From: an uncultured Bradyrhizobium sp.
Lineage (GTDB): Bacteria; Pseudomonadota; Alphaproteobacteria; Rhizobiales; Xanthobacteraceae
Assembly: GCF_947648125.1 (NCBI RefSeq)
Contig: NZ_CANSMR010000030.1
Location: 1 to 64,000 of the forward strand
Direction of reading: 5' to 3'
DNA length: 64,000 nt
Below are positions 2,511 through 55,534 of this stretch, piece by piece. Both the position numbers and the translations under genes were made by a program. The notes below the pieces were generated by a model, which ran no database searches, was not told the DNA's origin, and saw only the letters and a list, made by a program, of their open reading frames with translations. The first letter of the stretch is position 1. The number at the start of each line of letters is the position of its first letter.

Positions 2511-3634
2511 CACATCACCTCGATGTCGGCTTCGATCGCGCCGGCGGCCTTGATCGCCTGCAGGATGCTGATGAGATCGCGCGGTCCAATGCCGAGGCCG
2601 TTGAGGCCGTCGACGAGCTGCTGCAGCGAGACGCCGTCCTTGACGACGGCGAACTTCTTGCCGTCCTCGCTGACGCCGACGCTGGTGCGCGGTGTCACGA
2701 CCGTTCGGCCGCGCGACAGCGGATTGGGCTGGCTGACCTGCGGGCTCTCGGAGATCGAGACGGTGAGATTGCCCTGCGCGACGGCGACGGTCGCGACACG
2801 CACGTCGCGGCCCATCACGATGACGCCGGAGCGTTCGTCGATCACGATCTTCGCCACCAGATCGGGATCGACCTGCAACTGCTCGATTTCGGTCAGGAAG
2901 GCGACGACGTTGCCCTTGAACTCCGGCGGGATCGCAAGCTGCACCGTGGAAGGATCGATCGGCTCGGCGGTCTTGACGCCGAGATAGTCGTTGACCGCGG
3001 CGGCGATGCGCTTGGCGGTGGTGAAGTCGGCGTTGCGCAGCGCCAAGCGTACATTGGGCAGGCGGTTGAGCGCGAATTCGATTTCGCGCTCGATGATGGC
3101 GCCGTTGGCGATACGGCCGACGGTCGGCACGCCGCGCACGACGCTGGCGGCGGCGCCTTCGGCCGCGAAGCCGGCGACCGCGACCGATCCCTGTGCCACC
3201 GCATAGACATTGCCGTCGGCGCCGAGCAGGGGAGTGACGAGCAGGGTGCCGCCTTGCAGGTTCTTGGCATCGCCGAGCGCGGAGACGGTGACGTCCATCC
3301 GCGTGCCCTGGGTGCCGAACGCCGGCAGATTGCCGGTCACCATCACGGCGGCAACGTTGCCGGTGCGGATGGTGGCGCCGCGAATGTTGACGCCCATGCG
3401 CTCGAGCATCGCTTGCAGCGATTGCTTGGTGAAGGGGATGTTGTTCAGCGTGTCGCCGGTGCCGTTGAGGCCAACCACGAGGCCGTAGCCGATCAACTGG
3501 TTCTGGCGCACGCCCTCGATGTTGGCGAGATCCTTGATCCGTGACGTCGCGGCCGCCGGCATGGCGCAAGCCGCCAGCGCCAGCAGCGCGGCGCAGGCCA
3601 ATCCGAATAGATTTGCGATGCGGATGCCGGGCAT
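2510..3634 (-). CDS. flgI: Flagellar P-ring protein FlgI
   Basis: The start at 3634 is preferred because a GGGGAG lies just upstream and a clean Sec signal peptide begins there (LFGLACAALLALAACAMPAAA, cleavage near residue 29). An upstream ATG at 3679 would place 15 residues before it. The 374-residue product carries the family blocks SRIKDLANIEGVRQNQLIGYGLVVGLNGTGD, TPLLGADGNVYAVAQG and the C-terminal LVDGLNGLGIGPRDLISILQAIKAAGA. FlgI forms the periplasmic P ring around the rod. It heads the group flgI-flgJ type-flgN like. A sigma54-like element at 3702-3717 precedes it. Confidence 0.95.
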   Translation of the reverse strand: MPGIRIANLFGLACAALLALAACAMPAAATSRIKDLANIEGVRQNQLIGYGLVVGLNGTGDTLNNIPFTKQSLQAMLERMGVNIRGATIRTGNVAAVMVTGNLPAFGTQGTRMDVTVSALGDAKNLQGGTLLVTPLLGADGNVYAVAQGSVAVAGFAAEGAAASVVRGVPTVGRIANGAIIEREIEFALNRLPNVRLALRNADFTTAKRIAAAVNDYLGVKTAEPIDPSTVQLAIPPEFKGNVVAFLTEIEQLQVDPDLVAKIVIDERSGVIVMGRDVRVATVAVAQGNLTVSISESPQVSQPNPLSRGRTVVTPRTSVGVSEDGKKFAVVKDGVSLQQLVDGLNGLGIGPRDLISILQAIKAAGAIEADIEVM

Positions 3635-51437: not shown

Positions 51438-51734
51438 TTACGCCCGCGTGCCGGTGAAGGGGAAGCTGCCCATCGGGCCGATGCCCATCTCGCCGGAGAT
51501 GCCGTCGCCTGCGACCGTGCCGGAGAATTCGAGCGTCAGCGGCATCGGATTGGTGATGGAGACCTTCCAGGCGACGCTGTCGCCGTTCACGGTGCCGTCG
51601 AAGATTTCGGTGGAGTTGCCCTCGGCGCCCTGCGTGCCGGTGAGCGTGCCGCCCGAACTCGCCAGCGACAAGGTCGCCTTGCGCTCGCCCATCGGCGTCG
51701 TCATGGTCAAATTCCAGTTTCCGTCCACCGCCAT
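51438..51734 (-). CDS. Small unknown protein, beta-rich
   Basis: This 98-residue protein reads as repeated beta strands: MAVDGNWNLTMTTPMGERKATLSLASSGGTLTGTQGAEGN, then SVAWKVSITNPMPLTLEFSGTVAGDGISGEMGIGPMGSFPFTGTRA. Gly/Thr-rich turns suggest a small beta-barrel such as a lipocalin-like or FABP-like shell. No signal peptide is present. GGAGGG lies upstream of the ATG. Function is unknown. Confidence 0.7.
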   Translation of the reverse strand: MAVDGNWNLTMTTPMGERKATLSLASSGGTLTGTQGAEGNSTEIFDGTVNGDSVAWKVSITNPMPLTLEFSGTVAGDGISGEMGIGPMGSFPFTGTRA

Positions 51735-51813: not shown

Positions 51814-52368
51814 TCAGGCGCGGGCGGCGGCGCGCAGCCGGTTGCTGACCAGGAAGCGGAAAGCGACGTACTGGATCGCGAACGCGGCGATCTTGGCGCC
51901 GACCAGCACCACCGACACGTAGAGCGCCCACAGCTTCATGTCGCCGGTCGCCGCGATCGCGATGGTGCCGGCGGCGAGGATGAACATCAGCCCGGCCCAG
52001 GCGTAGCCGGCGAGGGTGGCGTATTCCGGAATGGTCTCGGTCACGATCGGCGGCAGATAGCGCAGCATCCAGCCGCGCTTGAGCATGATCGTGCCGATCG
52101 CGATGTGGCCGATCGCGGGCTTCGCCAGCACGAAGCGCGGATCGTTGGTGAGCAGCGTCGCGCCGCCAAGCACGATCACCAGTCCAAGGCTCGCCCAGGT
52201 CATGTAGCCGAGCGTCTGTCCCTTCATACGCGCATAGACCACTTGCGCAATCGCACCCACGATCGCGACAGCGGTGGCGATCAGGACATTGTCGGTGGCG
52301 AGATAGACCACCAGGAACACGATGGTGGAGAGGAAGTCGCTCGCGAGCCTGGCAAATACGCTCTTCAT
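51814..52368 (-). CDS. YciB/IspZ-like inner-membrane protein
   Basis: This 184-residue protein has about five hydrophobic segments (SDFLSTIVFLVVYLATDNVLIATAVAIVG, LGLVIVLGGATLLTN, KPAIGHIAIGTIML, GYAWAGLMFILAAGTIAIAA, LYVSVVLVGAKIAAFAIQYVAF). The pattern matches the YciB/IspZ intracellular septation family (about 180 residues, 5 TM). YciB affects envelope integrity and division in E. coli. It is the second gene after 52427-53002, with 58 bases between, and shares the operator at 53021-53092. Confidence 0.75.
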   Translation of the reverse strand: MKSVFARLASDFLSTIVFLVVYLATDNVLIATAVAIVGAIAQVVYARMKGQTLGYMTWASLGLVIVLGGATLLTNDPRFVLAKPAIGHIAIGTIMLKRGWMLRYLPPIVTETIPEYATLAGYAWAGLMFILAAGTIAIAATGDMKLWALYVSVVLVGAKIAAFAIQYVAFRFLVSNRLRAAARA

Positions 52369-52426: not shown

Positions 52427-53002
52427 CTAGCGTGACGGCAGCGCGCCAGCCGGCGGCGTCCCGTATTTGGCCGCGCGATATTGCGGATACCAGCGGGTGA
52501 AGCACACCGCGGCGTTGCGCGCGGCGAAGGCGATCAAGAGGCCGGTCCACAGCGGCAGGGCCGGTACATAGAGCACCGCGATGTTGCCGATCAACATCAA
52601 CAGCGTCGCGGCGGTCCAGGCTCCGGTGATCAGGTAGTTGGCTGTGAGGAAGCCCGGCTGCTTCGCGGTCTCGGCATCGACCTGCTCGAGCGCATATTGC
52701 CGCGTGAAGGGACGGCCGATCAGGATCGAGGCGAACGACACCAGCAGGATGCCGGCATCGACGGCGATCTTCACCGCGATTGCGCTTGGCGTCGCATCGA
52801 CGAAGGTGAGATAGAAGCCGACCGCGGTGAACACGATCACCGAACCGACGCCGAGGATCTTGATGCTGCGGCCGCGCGCGATGTCGAACGCGATGACGCC
52901 AAGGCAGATCAGCGCGGCAGCGAGTAAACTCACGGTAGCCGAGGTCACCAGCATCAGAGTGGCGAAGGCGCCGTAAGGGGCGAGGATCAGGAAGATCGTC
53001 AT
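52427..53002 (-). CDS. Multi-spanning membrane protein, unknown
   Basis: GAGGC upstream fixes the ATG at 53002. The 191-residue protein has about six hydrophobic segments (FLILAPYGAFATLMLVTSATVSLLAAALICLGVIAFDIARG, VIVFTAVGFYLTFV, IAVDAGILLVSFASILIG, LLMLIGNIAVLYVPALPLWTGLLIAFAA). Loop residues include FTRQYALEQVDAETAKQ and the C-terminal FTRWYPQYRAAKYG. I do not recognise a family; the pattern resembles intramembrane septation-like proteins of the next gene. It is the first gene of the operon controlled by a duplicated TetR-type operator. Confidence 0.75.
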   Translation of the reverse strand: MTIFLILAPYGAFATLMLVTSATVSLLAAALICLGVIAFDIARGRSIKILGVGSVIVFTAVGFYLTFVDATPSAIAVKIAVDAGILLVSFASILIGRPFTRQYALEQVDAETAKQPGFLTANYLITGAWTAATLLMLIGNIAVLYVPALPLWTGLLIAFAARNAAVCFTRWYPQYRAAKYGTPPAGALPSR

Positions 53003-53020: not shown

Positions 53021-53092
53021 ATCTTTACATCGTAAAGATAGCCTAGAGGCGGGCAGAAGGAGCGTCAAGCGAAATCTTTACAGTGTCAAAAT
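53021..53092 (-). promoter_or_regulatory. Double operator upstream of the membrane-protein operon
   Basis: A perfect 19-bp palindrome ATCTTTACATCGTAAAGAT (53021-53039) lies 19 bases before the ATG, and an imperfect copy ATCTTTACAGTGTCAAAAT is at 53074-53092, 53 bases away centre to centre. Between them, on the minus strand, is TTGACG (complement of 53063-53068) as a -35 box. The same layout is found at 54726-54798, before the carotenoid oxygenase. Confidence 0.75.
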
Positions 53093-53169
53093 CGTGATGC
53101 GATCTCAATAAAGTGAGTGAATTCAGATTGATACTTAAGCGATCGTGGGTCGTGTCTTATATCGCCAGC

Positions 53170-53259
53170 CGTCATGGCCGGGCTTGTCCCGGCCATTCAC
53201 GCCTTTCCTTCAAGAACCAACAAAGACGTGGATGCCCGGGACAAGCCCGGGCATGACGA
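53170..53259. repeat. Palindromic repeat CGTCATGGCCGGG...CCCGGGCATGACG
   Basis: The element has inverted ends CGTCATGGCCGGGCTTGTCC and GGACAAGCCCGGGCATGACG around a short spacer. It lies in the 208-base region between the membrane-protein operon promoter and the carotenoid oxygenase 3' end. It would fold into a long hairpin and may end the oxygenase transcript. A single copy is seen in the window. Confidence 0.65.
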
Positions 53260-53300
53260 GTGGAGAGACTGGGTATTCTCACGCCTGGAGTGATGCGCAG

Positions 53301-54704
53301 TTACTCCGCCCCCACCCAATTGCCATGGAATCCGTCGGGCACACGGTGGCCGAGATGGACCAGCGCGGTTGGGCCAGCCTCGACGTCGGTGGCGTTGAAG
53401 ACGGCGAGGTCGCTGCGATTCTCGCGGGCCCGCCAGACCGCGGCGAGCAGCCAGCCGTCGCCCTCGGCGGCGCCCGAGCCGCGCTCGACGAAGACAGGCT
53501 CGGAGATCGTGTCGCCGGCGGGCAAGAGGTATTTGCCGAGCCGCTTGCCCGCGCCGTCGACATGCACGATGCCTGACAGCGCGCCGGCCAGCGGCACGTC
53601 AGGGTCGGTGCTTGCGTGCCAACCGTGGCTATTCCTGAGACCGGCGCGGCGGTCGTCGATCCGCGGGAATTCGCCGGTCAGATCGTTGAGATAGGTTTGG
53701 GTGAAGCTGTCGGTATTCCCGGCCAGATCAAAGCTCCAGCGGCATAGCCGGGCGCTCGATTTCTTCTCATCCGTCGGCGAGCCGTCGGGGTGGGTGAACA
53801 GCGGCGGCTCCTCGTACTGCATTACGTCGGCGATGATGCGGTTGCCGTCTTCCCATGCGTTCATGACGTGGAAGACATAACAGTTCTCGGCGCGGAACCA
53901 GACCAGATCGTTGGCTGAGCCGTTGCGCTTCATGACGCCGACATAGGCGCCTTTTCCCGGCTCCCAGGCGTAGGGCGGCTTGCCGCGCATCGCGCGTTCC
54001 ATGCTGCCGGTGATGGGCAGGATCGGAAACAGCACGTGGTTCTCGGTGACGATGAAGTCGTGCACCATGCTGGCATAGGGCGCCTCGAAGCGTTCGAACC
54101 GCGTCACCACGCCGGATGAATTGACCGCGCCATACGACAGCGCCGGCGTCAGAGGACCGGCGGCGTTGTAGCCGAAGAACACCATCTCGCCGGTGACCGG
54201 ATCGATCTTGGGATGCGCGGTGAAGGGGCCTGAGATCGCGCCCTTGTAGTCGCAATAGCCAAGGCGATTGAGCGTGCCGGGCTCGATCTCGGTCGGCAGA
54301 TGGCCCTCCTCAAGCGCGAGCAGGCGGCCGGCGTGGAAGATGATGTTGGTGTTGGCGACGCCGCTGTCGGTGATGGTCGTTTCGGGCGCATCAGGCAGCT
54401 TGCGGCCGAAGCCGCCAAACAGCGCGCGGCCGGCGTCGTGCTCGGCCTGCCATTTTGGGGTGCGGACCCAGCGATTGCGATAGCTGGCGCGGCCGTTCTC
54501 GAGATGGAAGGCGTGCAGCATGCCGTCGCCGACGAACCAGTGCGCGCCCGGTACATTGAACTGCGGATTGGGGCCGTTGCGGTAGAGCGTGCCGTTCAGC
54601 TCGCGCGGCAATTCGCCTGTGATCTTGAGGAACGGCGCATCGGCTTCAAACGGGATCGGCGCCAGATTGGTTCGCGCCGTGTTGGATGTGACCTGGTCGA
54701 GCAT
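53301..54704 (-). CDS. Carotenoid/apocarotenoid (lignostilbene-type) oxygenase
   Basis: GGGAGA upstream and the position of the operator fix the ATG at 54704; a start at 54764 would run through the operator. The 467-residue protein has the retinal-pigment-epithelial-type fold with four iron-binding His: H164 (FTAHPKIDP), H215 (MVHDFIVT), H279 (CYVFHVMNAWEDG) and H460 (GFHGNWV), plus second-shell acidic residues in the WEDGN loop. It is a non-haem Fe(II) enzyme that cleaves a polyene or stilbene double bond with O2. It is divergent from a TetR gene and shares an operator with it. Confidence 0.92.
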   Translation of the reverse strand: MLDQVTSNTARTNLAPIPFEADAPFLKITGELPRELNGTLYRNGPNPQFNVPGAHWFVGDGMLHAFHLENGRASYRNRWVRTPKWQAEHDAGRALFGGFGRKLPDAPETTITDSGVANTNIIFHAGRLLALEEGHLPTEIEPGTLNRLGYCDYKGAISGPFTAHPKIDPVTGEMVFFGYNAAGPLTPALSYGAVNSSGVVTRFERFEAPYASMVHDFIVTENHVLFPILPITGSMERAMRGKPPYAWEPGKGAYVGVMKRNGSANDLVWFRAENCYVFHVMNAWEDGNRIIADVMQYEEPPLFTHPDGSPTDEKKSSARLCRWSFDLAGNTDSFTQTYLNDLTGEFPRIDDRRAGLRNSHGWHASTDPDVPLAGALSGIVHVDGAGKRLGKYLLPAGDTISEPVFVERGSGAAEGDGWLLAAVWRARENRSDLAVFNATDVEAGPTALVHLGHRVPDGFHGNWVGAE

Positions 54705-54725
54705 TCCGCATCTCCCTGCATTATG

Positions 54726-54798
54726 ATCTTTACATCGTAAAGATATCAGTAGGGATGACGCCATCGATCGTCAAGCAAAATCTTTACAGTGTAAAAAT
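54726..54798. promoter_or_regulatory. Double TetR operator between carotenoid oxygenase and tetR
   Basis: The same perfect 19-bp palindrome as at 53021 is at 54726-54744, 22 bases before the oxygenase ATG. A second site ATCTTTACAGTGTAAAAAT is at 54780-54798, 54 bases away centre to centre and 20 bases before tetR. On the minus strand TTGACG (complement of 54769-54774) stands as in the other copy. Together these are a shared regulator-target control region. Confidence 0.8.
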
Positions 54799-54817
54799 TG
54801 CGACATATAAGGGCCGG

Positions 54818-55534
54818 ATGGCAAGATTATCCAAAGAAAACAAGGCGGCTCGCCCGGCACGGGCTCCGAGGCGCCAGATTGCGCGTGCTGCCGCGGATCG
54901 TCCGGCGCCGCGACGCCGGGCCAATGACACGCCGTATCATCATGGTGATCTGCACGAGGCGCTGCTCAAGGCCGCCGAGCGCGTGCTCGAGCGCGACGGA
55001 CTGGCGGGGCTGACGCTACGTGCGGTGGCGCGCGAGGCTGGCGTGTCGCACGCCGCACCCACGCATCATTTCGGCGATCTCACCGGCCTCGTCAGCGAGC
55101 TTGCCGCGATCGGCTTTCGCCAGTTCAACGCGGCGATGATCTCGGCCGGCGCCAGCGGCGCCACCGCGATCGAGAAGGGGCTGGCGCGCGCCAAGGCCTA
55201 TGTCGCCTATGCGCAGGCGCATCCCGGCATGTACGGCCTGATGTTCCGGACCGAGCGGCTCGATATGTCGAGGCCCTCGCTGCATGAGGCGGCCAACACG
55301 TCGTTTGCCGGGCTCGCCGGTTCGATCGGCGAGAGCCGTCACGAGCAGATCCAGGAGAGGGCGCTGTCGCTCGATCAGGCCGCGGCCATCGTGCGCGCCT
55401 GGTCGCTGGTCCATGGCTTCACGATGCTGCTGCTCGATGGACGCTTGACCGACGTGCTGAACCGGATGCCACAGGGCAGCACGCTCGACGTGCTGTTCGA
55501 GGCGATGCTGAAGGGCAATATGAAGCCGTGCTGA
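54818..55534 (+). CDS. TetR-family regulator
   Basis: AAGGG upstream and the operator at 54780-54798 fix the ATG at 54818. The 238-residue protein has a basic, Arg/Ala-rich N-terminal extension of about 40 residues (ARLSKENKAARPARAPRR). The TetR helix-turn-helix follows (HHGDLHEALLKAAERVLERDGLAGLTLRAVAREAGVSHAAPTHHFGDLTGLVSELAA), then a helical ligand domain. It probably represses its own gene and the oxygenase, and perhaps the membrane-protein operon at 51814-53002, which has the same operator. Its ligand is unknown; a carotenoid or apocarotenoid fragment is a guess. Confidence 0.93.
   Translation: MARLSKENKAARPARAPRRQIARAAADRPAPRRRANDTPYHHGDLHEALLKAAERVLERDGLAGLTLRAVAREAGVSHAAPTHHFGDLTGLVSELAAIGFRQFNAAMISAGASGATAIEKGLARAKAYVAYAQAHPGMYGLMFRTERLDMSRPSLHEAANTSFAGLAGSIGESRHEQIQERALSLDQAAAIVRAWSLVHGFTMLLLDGRLTDVLNRMPQGSTLDVLFEAMLKGNMKPC

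Follow-up and report, generated by a model that had tools for sequence, protein, structure and literature searches.

A duplicated paired operator is predicted to join an RPE65-family oxygenase gene and a YciB-like membrane operon in a single-locus TetR regulon

A 64,000-nucleotide stretch of DNA from an uncultured Bradyrhizobium sp. (the window) carries a TetR-family repressor gene, tetR (54818..55534, plus strand), divergent from a gene of the RPE65/carotenoid oxygenase family (CCO; 53301..54704, minus strand), which is followed on the same strand by a membrane operon. We conclude, with a probability of about 0.8, that tetR, the oxygenase gene and the YciB-like membrane operon make up a single-locus TetR regulon; the estimate applies to this predicted control and excludes function. 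The original prediction had at its core a duplicated control region from which a single TetR would regulate its own gene, the oxygenase and the membrane operon, and the comparison of related genomes supports this strongly. Paired sites, promoter-like boxes, their conservation and their co-occurrence with TetR were observed, and from them we infer a mechanism of binding, repression and ligand response, in which one TetR_C_33 repressor would act from two copies of a paired operator at a single locus. In each copy, two putative TetR sites, 51-56 bp apart (approximately five helical turns), bracket a TTGAC-17-TA promoter. The bound repressor would block RNA polymerase at both promoters, that of the oxygenase gene and that of memB-memA, and the second site on the tetR side, which covers the tetR -35 element, would provide autorepression. 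A ligand, probably lipophilic, would free TetR, and tetR, the oxygenase and the membrane proteins would then be switched on together. Such a regulon would be compact, present in Bradyrhizobium and relatives, with operators predicted at base level. It would link an orphan oxygenase (no CrtI-family gene was found in the genome) and divergent YciB-like proteins to one signal, which could be found by screening one repressor.

The exact 19-bp palindrome was found at 53021-53039 and 54726-54744, as predicted. Its arms are perfect 8-mers, and its 3-bp centre, ATC, is non-palindromic. The first copy, putative operator O1' of the membrane operon (minus strand), lies 18 bp before the memB ATG; the second, putative operator O1 of the oxygenase (minus strand), lies 1 bp after a -10 box and 21 bp before the ATG. 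The partner of each was located where it had been claimed to be, at 53074-53092 (O2', plus strand, upstream of the membrane operon) and at 54780-54798 (O2, plus strand, proximal to tetR); the reading that best fits these copies, labelled "degenerate" in the original prediction, is that each serves as a second operator in earnest. The segment common to both regions spans 38 nt at 87% (53060-53097 and 54766-54803), and the reading-frame coordinates given earlier for the oxygenase (53301-54704) and TetR (54818) were correct.

When the 64-kb window was searched with up to three mismatches, six strand-wise matches were obtained, whereas 100 shuffles averaged 0.00; the copy at 53074 has more mismatches to the exact 19-bp string than the matches counted in this test. 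Throughout the 8.57-Mb genome, ATCTTTAC-N3-GTAAAGAT with up to two mismatches returned only the four reported sites. A search with ATCTTTACNNNGTAAAGAT, also at up to two mismatches, returned the same four sites alone, and its reversed control gave 0 matches. An IUPAC motif with two mismatches produced scattered extra matches, at up to 13 places in the window's genome (reversed control, 0-3 matches per genome), and for this motif we therefore regard only 0-1 mismatch as informative; one genome, G024, had at least one match outside the locus at one mismatch. A 45-nt inverted repeat, 84% complementary, lies at 53162-53266 between the oxygenase gene and the membrane operon, and looks like an interspersed palindromic element.

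Minus-strand TTGACG-17-TA boxes abut the palindromes, in agreement with the original prediction, at a distance of 0 bp for the membrane operon and 1 bp for the oxygenase. The likely oxygenase promoter, TTGACG-17-TACTGA (54746..54774, minus strand), is situated between O2 and O1, and the likely membrane-operon promoter is TTGACG-17-TAGGCT (53040..53068, minus strand). A generic σ70 scan reported neither of these two minus-strand promoters, because their -10 boxes are weak. The likely tetR -10 element, TATAAG (54806..54811, plus strand), is found 17 bp after TTTACA (54783-54788), the likely -35 element contained in O2, and 6 bp before the ATG; with a -10 box this close to the start codon, the tetR mRNA may be leaderless.

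Paired sites for comparison were drawn from 80 named loci, 32 further loci and the window, with some species in both sets. This gave 95 tetR-side and 64 distal pairs, or 88 and 59 after identical ones were removed. The start-to-start spacing of the two sites was 52-56 bp in tetR-side pairs (n = 88) and 51-55 bp in distal pairs (n = 59). The -35 core (GTCAA on the other strand) was present in 88/88 tetR-side and 59/59 distal pairs, and was followed by a 17-bp spacer and a TA box in 75 and 55 of them, respectively; pairs with no TA box 16-18 bp from TTGAC numbered 5/88 and 1/59. A different result was obtained for the divergent promoter: at the 59 loci with both copies, the tetR TATA was present in 57 tetR-side copies versus none of the distal ones. 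The arms of the distal O2' had a mean column identity of 0.99 (ca. 0.5 for the sequence between the sites), a value that is partly built in, since the sites were gathered with a mismatch cut-off that sets a floor of ca. 0.8 for arm identity. The retention of the distal O2' where the tetR -10 has gone indicates that O2' is an operator in its own right and not part of a promoter, and the view that the degenerate copies are only parts of the tetR promoter is rejected on these grounds. With the tetR promoter dead in one copy and the operators preserved in the two, this natural comparison gives exceptionally clear evidence for the importance of both operators.

To compare loci more widely, sites were counted at up to one mismatch in 119 genomes of the window's family. 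A TetR orthologue, defined as a match of at least 50% identity, was found in 26 of them (some matches being partial), and sites were present in 23 of these 26 genomes and in 0 of the 93 others (Fisher p ~1e-21). The three TetR carriers with no site were G021, G043 and G089; G089 keeps tetR-CCO with no recognisable site, and in G021 and G043 no CCO or membrane genes were found beside TetR. The search in relatives placed 41 of 44 site positions at tetR, the oxygenase or memB, the pattern to be expected if the copies flank these genes. The three remaining positions come from three Tardiphaga-like genomes and correspond to a single additional place, immediately ahead of a gene for a predicted membrane protein with DUF2306 (L200, ca. 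3007-3025; L201; L025), an assignment made by a Pfam run on one of the three loci. This gene may be a third target; the flanks of its site are conserved too, so site conservation proves little there.

Upstream sequence was too short at nine of the 80 named loci, which were left out of the following counts. Among the 71 that were counted, mostly Bradyrhizobium, the oxygenase was present in 66, memB in 62, memA in 67, the tetR-side pair in 68 and the distal pair in 53; a recount that kept identical copies gave the same numbers. The oxygenase and memB occurred together in 59 of the 71, and the membrane operon thus accompanies the TetR-oxygenase pair, as had been anticipated. Both paired regions were found in 53 of these 59 loci, which is a less biased figure than arm identity, and five of the other six keep one distal site; at L185, CCO and memB are present with no paired region. 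In seven of the 119 family genomes (G005, G016, G025, G045, G059, G065 and G087), tetR and memB are immediate divergent neighbours with one paired region between them, and no orthologous oxygenase was found locally. The oxygenase is not an invariable partner of the membrane operon.

The regulator exceeds the Pfam cut-offs for both TetR_N (37.9 bits) and TetR_C_33 (50.8 bits), and the nearest named TetR, from B. tropiciagri, is 91% identical. Genistein-inducible TetR genes are reported in Bradyrhizobium (PMC4070704). The membrane operon comprises memB (52427..53002, minus strand), which codes for a multi-spanning membrane protein, and memA (51814..52368, minus strand), which codes for a divergent YciB/IspZ-like (PF04279) membrane protein; a rough hydropathy count gave five membrane segments in each. 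MemA resembles YciB/IspZ septation protein A in scoring 58.8 bits against PF04279 (Pfam cut-off, 28.7). It differs in that its best score against the NCBIfam YciB/IspZ equivalog is 65.4 bits, below the cut-off of 180, and in that a separate PF04279 copy of ca. 190-200 bits is encoded elsewhere in 18/18 genomes examined; with this stronger copy present, memA itself is unlikely to be the septation protein. No Pfam match was obtained for memB, which gave a VC0807-like match of 29.2 bits (memA, 22.7 bits), below the NCBIfam cut-off of 65 bits, and a profile comparison bearing on a common ancestry of memA and memB returned a probability of ca. 1%. A half-length YciB-like protein is added in Tardiphaga- and Afipia-like genomes. 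Next to memA lies p98 (51438..51734, minus strand), a gene for a conserved, Gly-rich 98-aa protein with no Pfam or NCBIfam match, whose operon membership is uncertain (79-bp gap). It is 64-99% identical among relatives aligned in full. Of the 71 named loci, 64 contain it, and in 83/83 loci where it was seen it lies on the same strand as the membrane operon.

The oxygenase retains the residues expected of RPE65-family membership, namely iron ligands His164, 215, 279 and 460 and second-shell Glu133, 345 and 402; position 460 is Tyr at a single one of the 84 orthologous loci. No CrtI-family match was found in the window's genome at E 1e-80 or better, a strict cut-off, and an endogenous carotenoid is disfavoured as the substrate there on this basis. 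At the same cut-off, CrtI-family matches occur in 22 of the 119 genomes. Oxygenases of at least 57% identity were found in 24 genomes, in 17 of them beside tetR (in G114 across a contig break) and in seven unlinked to it. CrtI was present in one of the 17 tetR-linked genomes (G089, which is without operators) versus six of the seven unlinked ones. The occurrence of a putatively operator-controlled oxygenase in genomes without CrtI argues, as a correlation only, for a substrate that is exogenous or of another kind. Three CrtI-bearing genomes (G005, G016 and G059) do carry the membrane operon together with operators. A MAPEG protein (PF01124) is encoded behind the oxygenase in 34 of the 71 named loci, 11 copies being long and 23 partial; the gene, exemplified by L084:6606-7112 and seen at other Bradyrhizobium loci as well, looks as if it is decaying.

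Across the order, 15 of 297 genomes contain the exact IUPAC motif, and five of the 15 belong to families other than that of the window. In three of these five (G345, G348 and G328; loci L207, L208 and L209), it lies between the gene for a TetR homologue of 39-42% identity and an ABA4-like gene (PF14108), and in the other two (L205 and L206) no kin of these genes were found. Class-wide, 4/385 genomes contain the exact motif, two of them already known and the others being G501 and G717. The TetR_C_33-ABA4 loci of other Alphaproteobacteria are like the present one in having the same operator in three genomes, with O1 14-15 bp before the ABA4-like start in each, and in having the 55-bp pairing in one. 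The latter is G345 (TetR 39% identical), where two strong sites (30.5 and 29.9 bits) are 55 bp apart and a weaker one (23.5 bits) lies between them; a single strong site was found in each of G348 and G328. They are unlike it in their regulator, which is ca. 38-42% identical (TetR_C_33 was confirmed for G348), and in their cargo, an ABA4-like gene followed by a gene for a membrane protein related to the 281-aa one of G345. The tetR-ABA4 loci of three genomes in the window's own family (G004, G063 and G085) have weak sites only, the best scoring 10.8-14.6 bits versus ca. 30. Among 30 chosen genomes, ABA4-like proteins were detected in seven, which do not include the window's. The regulator and operator seem to stay while the membrane cargo changes.

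Several other explanations were weighed against the TetR regulon. There are 15 matches to the TetR protein in the window's genome at E 0.001 or better, and the sites might be bound by another TetR-family paralogue, the adjacent TetR being incidental; this is extremely improbable, given that sites and TetR orthologue go together across the family (23/26 versus 0/93 genomes) and that the next-best paralogue in the genome is just 35% identical. It is also very unlikely that the control region of the membrane operon is a relic of duplication, with TetR acting on tetR and the oxygenase only. Although the distal copy lies between genes of the same direction and its divergent promoter is dead, both of its sites and the minus-strand -35 element are kept in all 59 distal pairs at near-constant spacing with the TATA gone, and the direct pairing of tetR with memB across one paired region in seven genomes likewise speaks against a relic. 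A third alternative, a plant-stilbene catabolic unit with a lignostilbene dioxygenase as its enzyme, draws on the intact iron centre, on the best curated match, NF053778 (LigStilDioxAlpha), and on the closest solved chains by sequence, which are lignostilbene dioxygenases and their kin (LSD4, LsdA and NOV1) with the same four His and three Glu. The NF053778 match scores 418.1 bits, however, against a cut-off of 800. Moreover, Tyr-101 and Lys-134, described for LSD4 as binding the 4-hydroxyl of the substrate (PMC8191317), correspond to Phe99 and Glu132 here, when LSD4 numbering from that report is combined with alignment to solved chains. Among 84 orthologous loci, with some species counted twice, Phe99 is present in 84 and Glu132 in 81 (Val in 3), and the phenol-recognition Tyr and Lys are each missing in all. 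Membership of the lignostilbene dioxygenases is rejected on the score and the two residues, and a stilbene unit as a whole is distinctly unlikely.

The order in which the targets were gained bears on the meaning of the regulon. We give a little less than even odds to a history in which the membrane proteins are the ancestral core targets, the oxygenase joined them later or dropped out repeatedly, and no shared pathway is required. The occurrence of tetR-memB without CCO in four genera (g6, g17, g25 and g45), the position of distant TetR relatives beside ABA4-like and another membrane protein rather than an oxygenase, and the location of CCO orthologues away from TetR in 7 of 24 genomes all favour it, but the CCO label needs three changes, of either polarity, on the TetR tree, and CCO is found at most named loci (66/71, mostly Bradyrhizobium). 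This history can be compatible with the best explanation, the TetR regulon. A bolder and improbable extension is a sensor system with exchangeable cargo, in which a single TetR_C_33 lineage, its double operator unchanged, would respond to a lipophilic polyene or isoprenoid and would drive interchangeable membrane modules in different Alphaproteobacteria; these would be either YciB-like memA/memB/memC, with or without an oxygenase and a MAPEG protein, or an ABA4-like protein plus the 281-aa protein. If it were true, the YciB-like and bacterial ABA4-like proteins would be functionally equivalent in the handling of membrane polyenes or isoprenoids, and there would be a handle on the roles of both families.

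As to function, the most likely job of the TetR regulon would be the clearing or handling of an exogenous or non-carotenoid unsaturated lipophile, in which the oxygenase would cleave a C=C bond and the membrane proteins would protect or adjust the membrane. Co-regulation of C=C cleavage with membrane adjustment in response to a lipophilic signal is our guess; no common substrate links the oxygenase to the membrane proteins in our data, and the coupling of polyene cleavage to an envelope or membrane-lipid response, which the original prediction had put forward, is speculative.

The pairing of a TetR gene with an oxygenase gene is already known. In Mycobacterium kansasii, a divergent TetR/AcrR repressor, ccoR, is reported to control cco1, and loss of ccoR raises cco1 ca. 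100-fold; the orthologous locus is Rv0653c-Rv0654, and the species that carries this orthologous locus is called a non-carotenoid producer (PMC9861118). The likeness to the present locus is one of gene arrangement, with a TetR gene divergent from a carotenoid oxygenase gene, and extends to the carrier, the window's genome having no CrtI-family match at E 1e-80. Unlike the present locus, ccoR-cco1 is described in the accessible text of that report as a two-gene locus, without a membrane operon or a second operator pair. As far as our literature search shows, the new elements are the second paired operator, predicted to drive the membrane operon, and the exchange of cargo; the regulon was not described in any title or abstract found, in a search whose coverage left most subscription journals outside.

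Several further arrangements were seen among the relatives. In five CrtI-bearing genomes (L193-L197), the orthologous oxygenase gene lies behind two genes, one for an AAA-type ATPase and one for a VWA/metallopeptidase-like protein (DUF2201); both loci of this group that were checked also have an alpha/beta hydrolase close by. The locus in L150, a record titled Frankia sp. RB7, is a typical Bradyrhizobium version, and the label looks wrong. Afipia-like genomes carry a second, more distant TetR-oxygenase pair a few kb away (ca. 29-31% and 39-42% identical, respectively), at L096:3450-5368, L098:12099-14021, L184 and L186.
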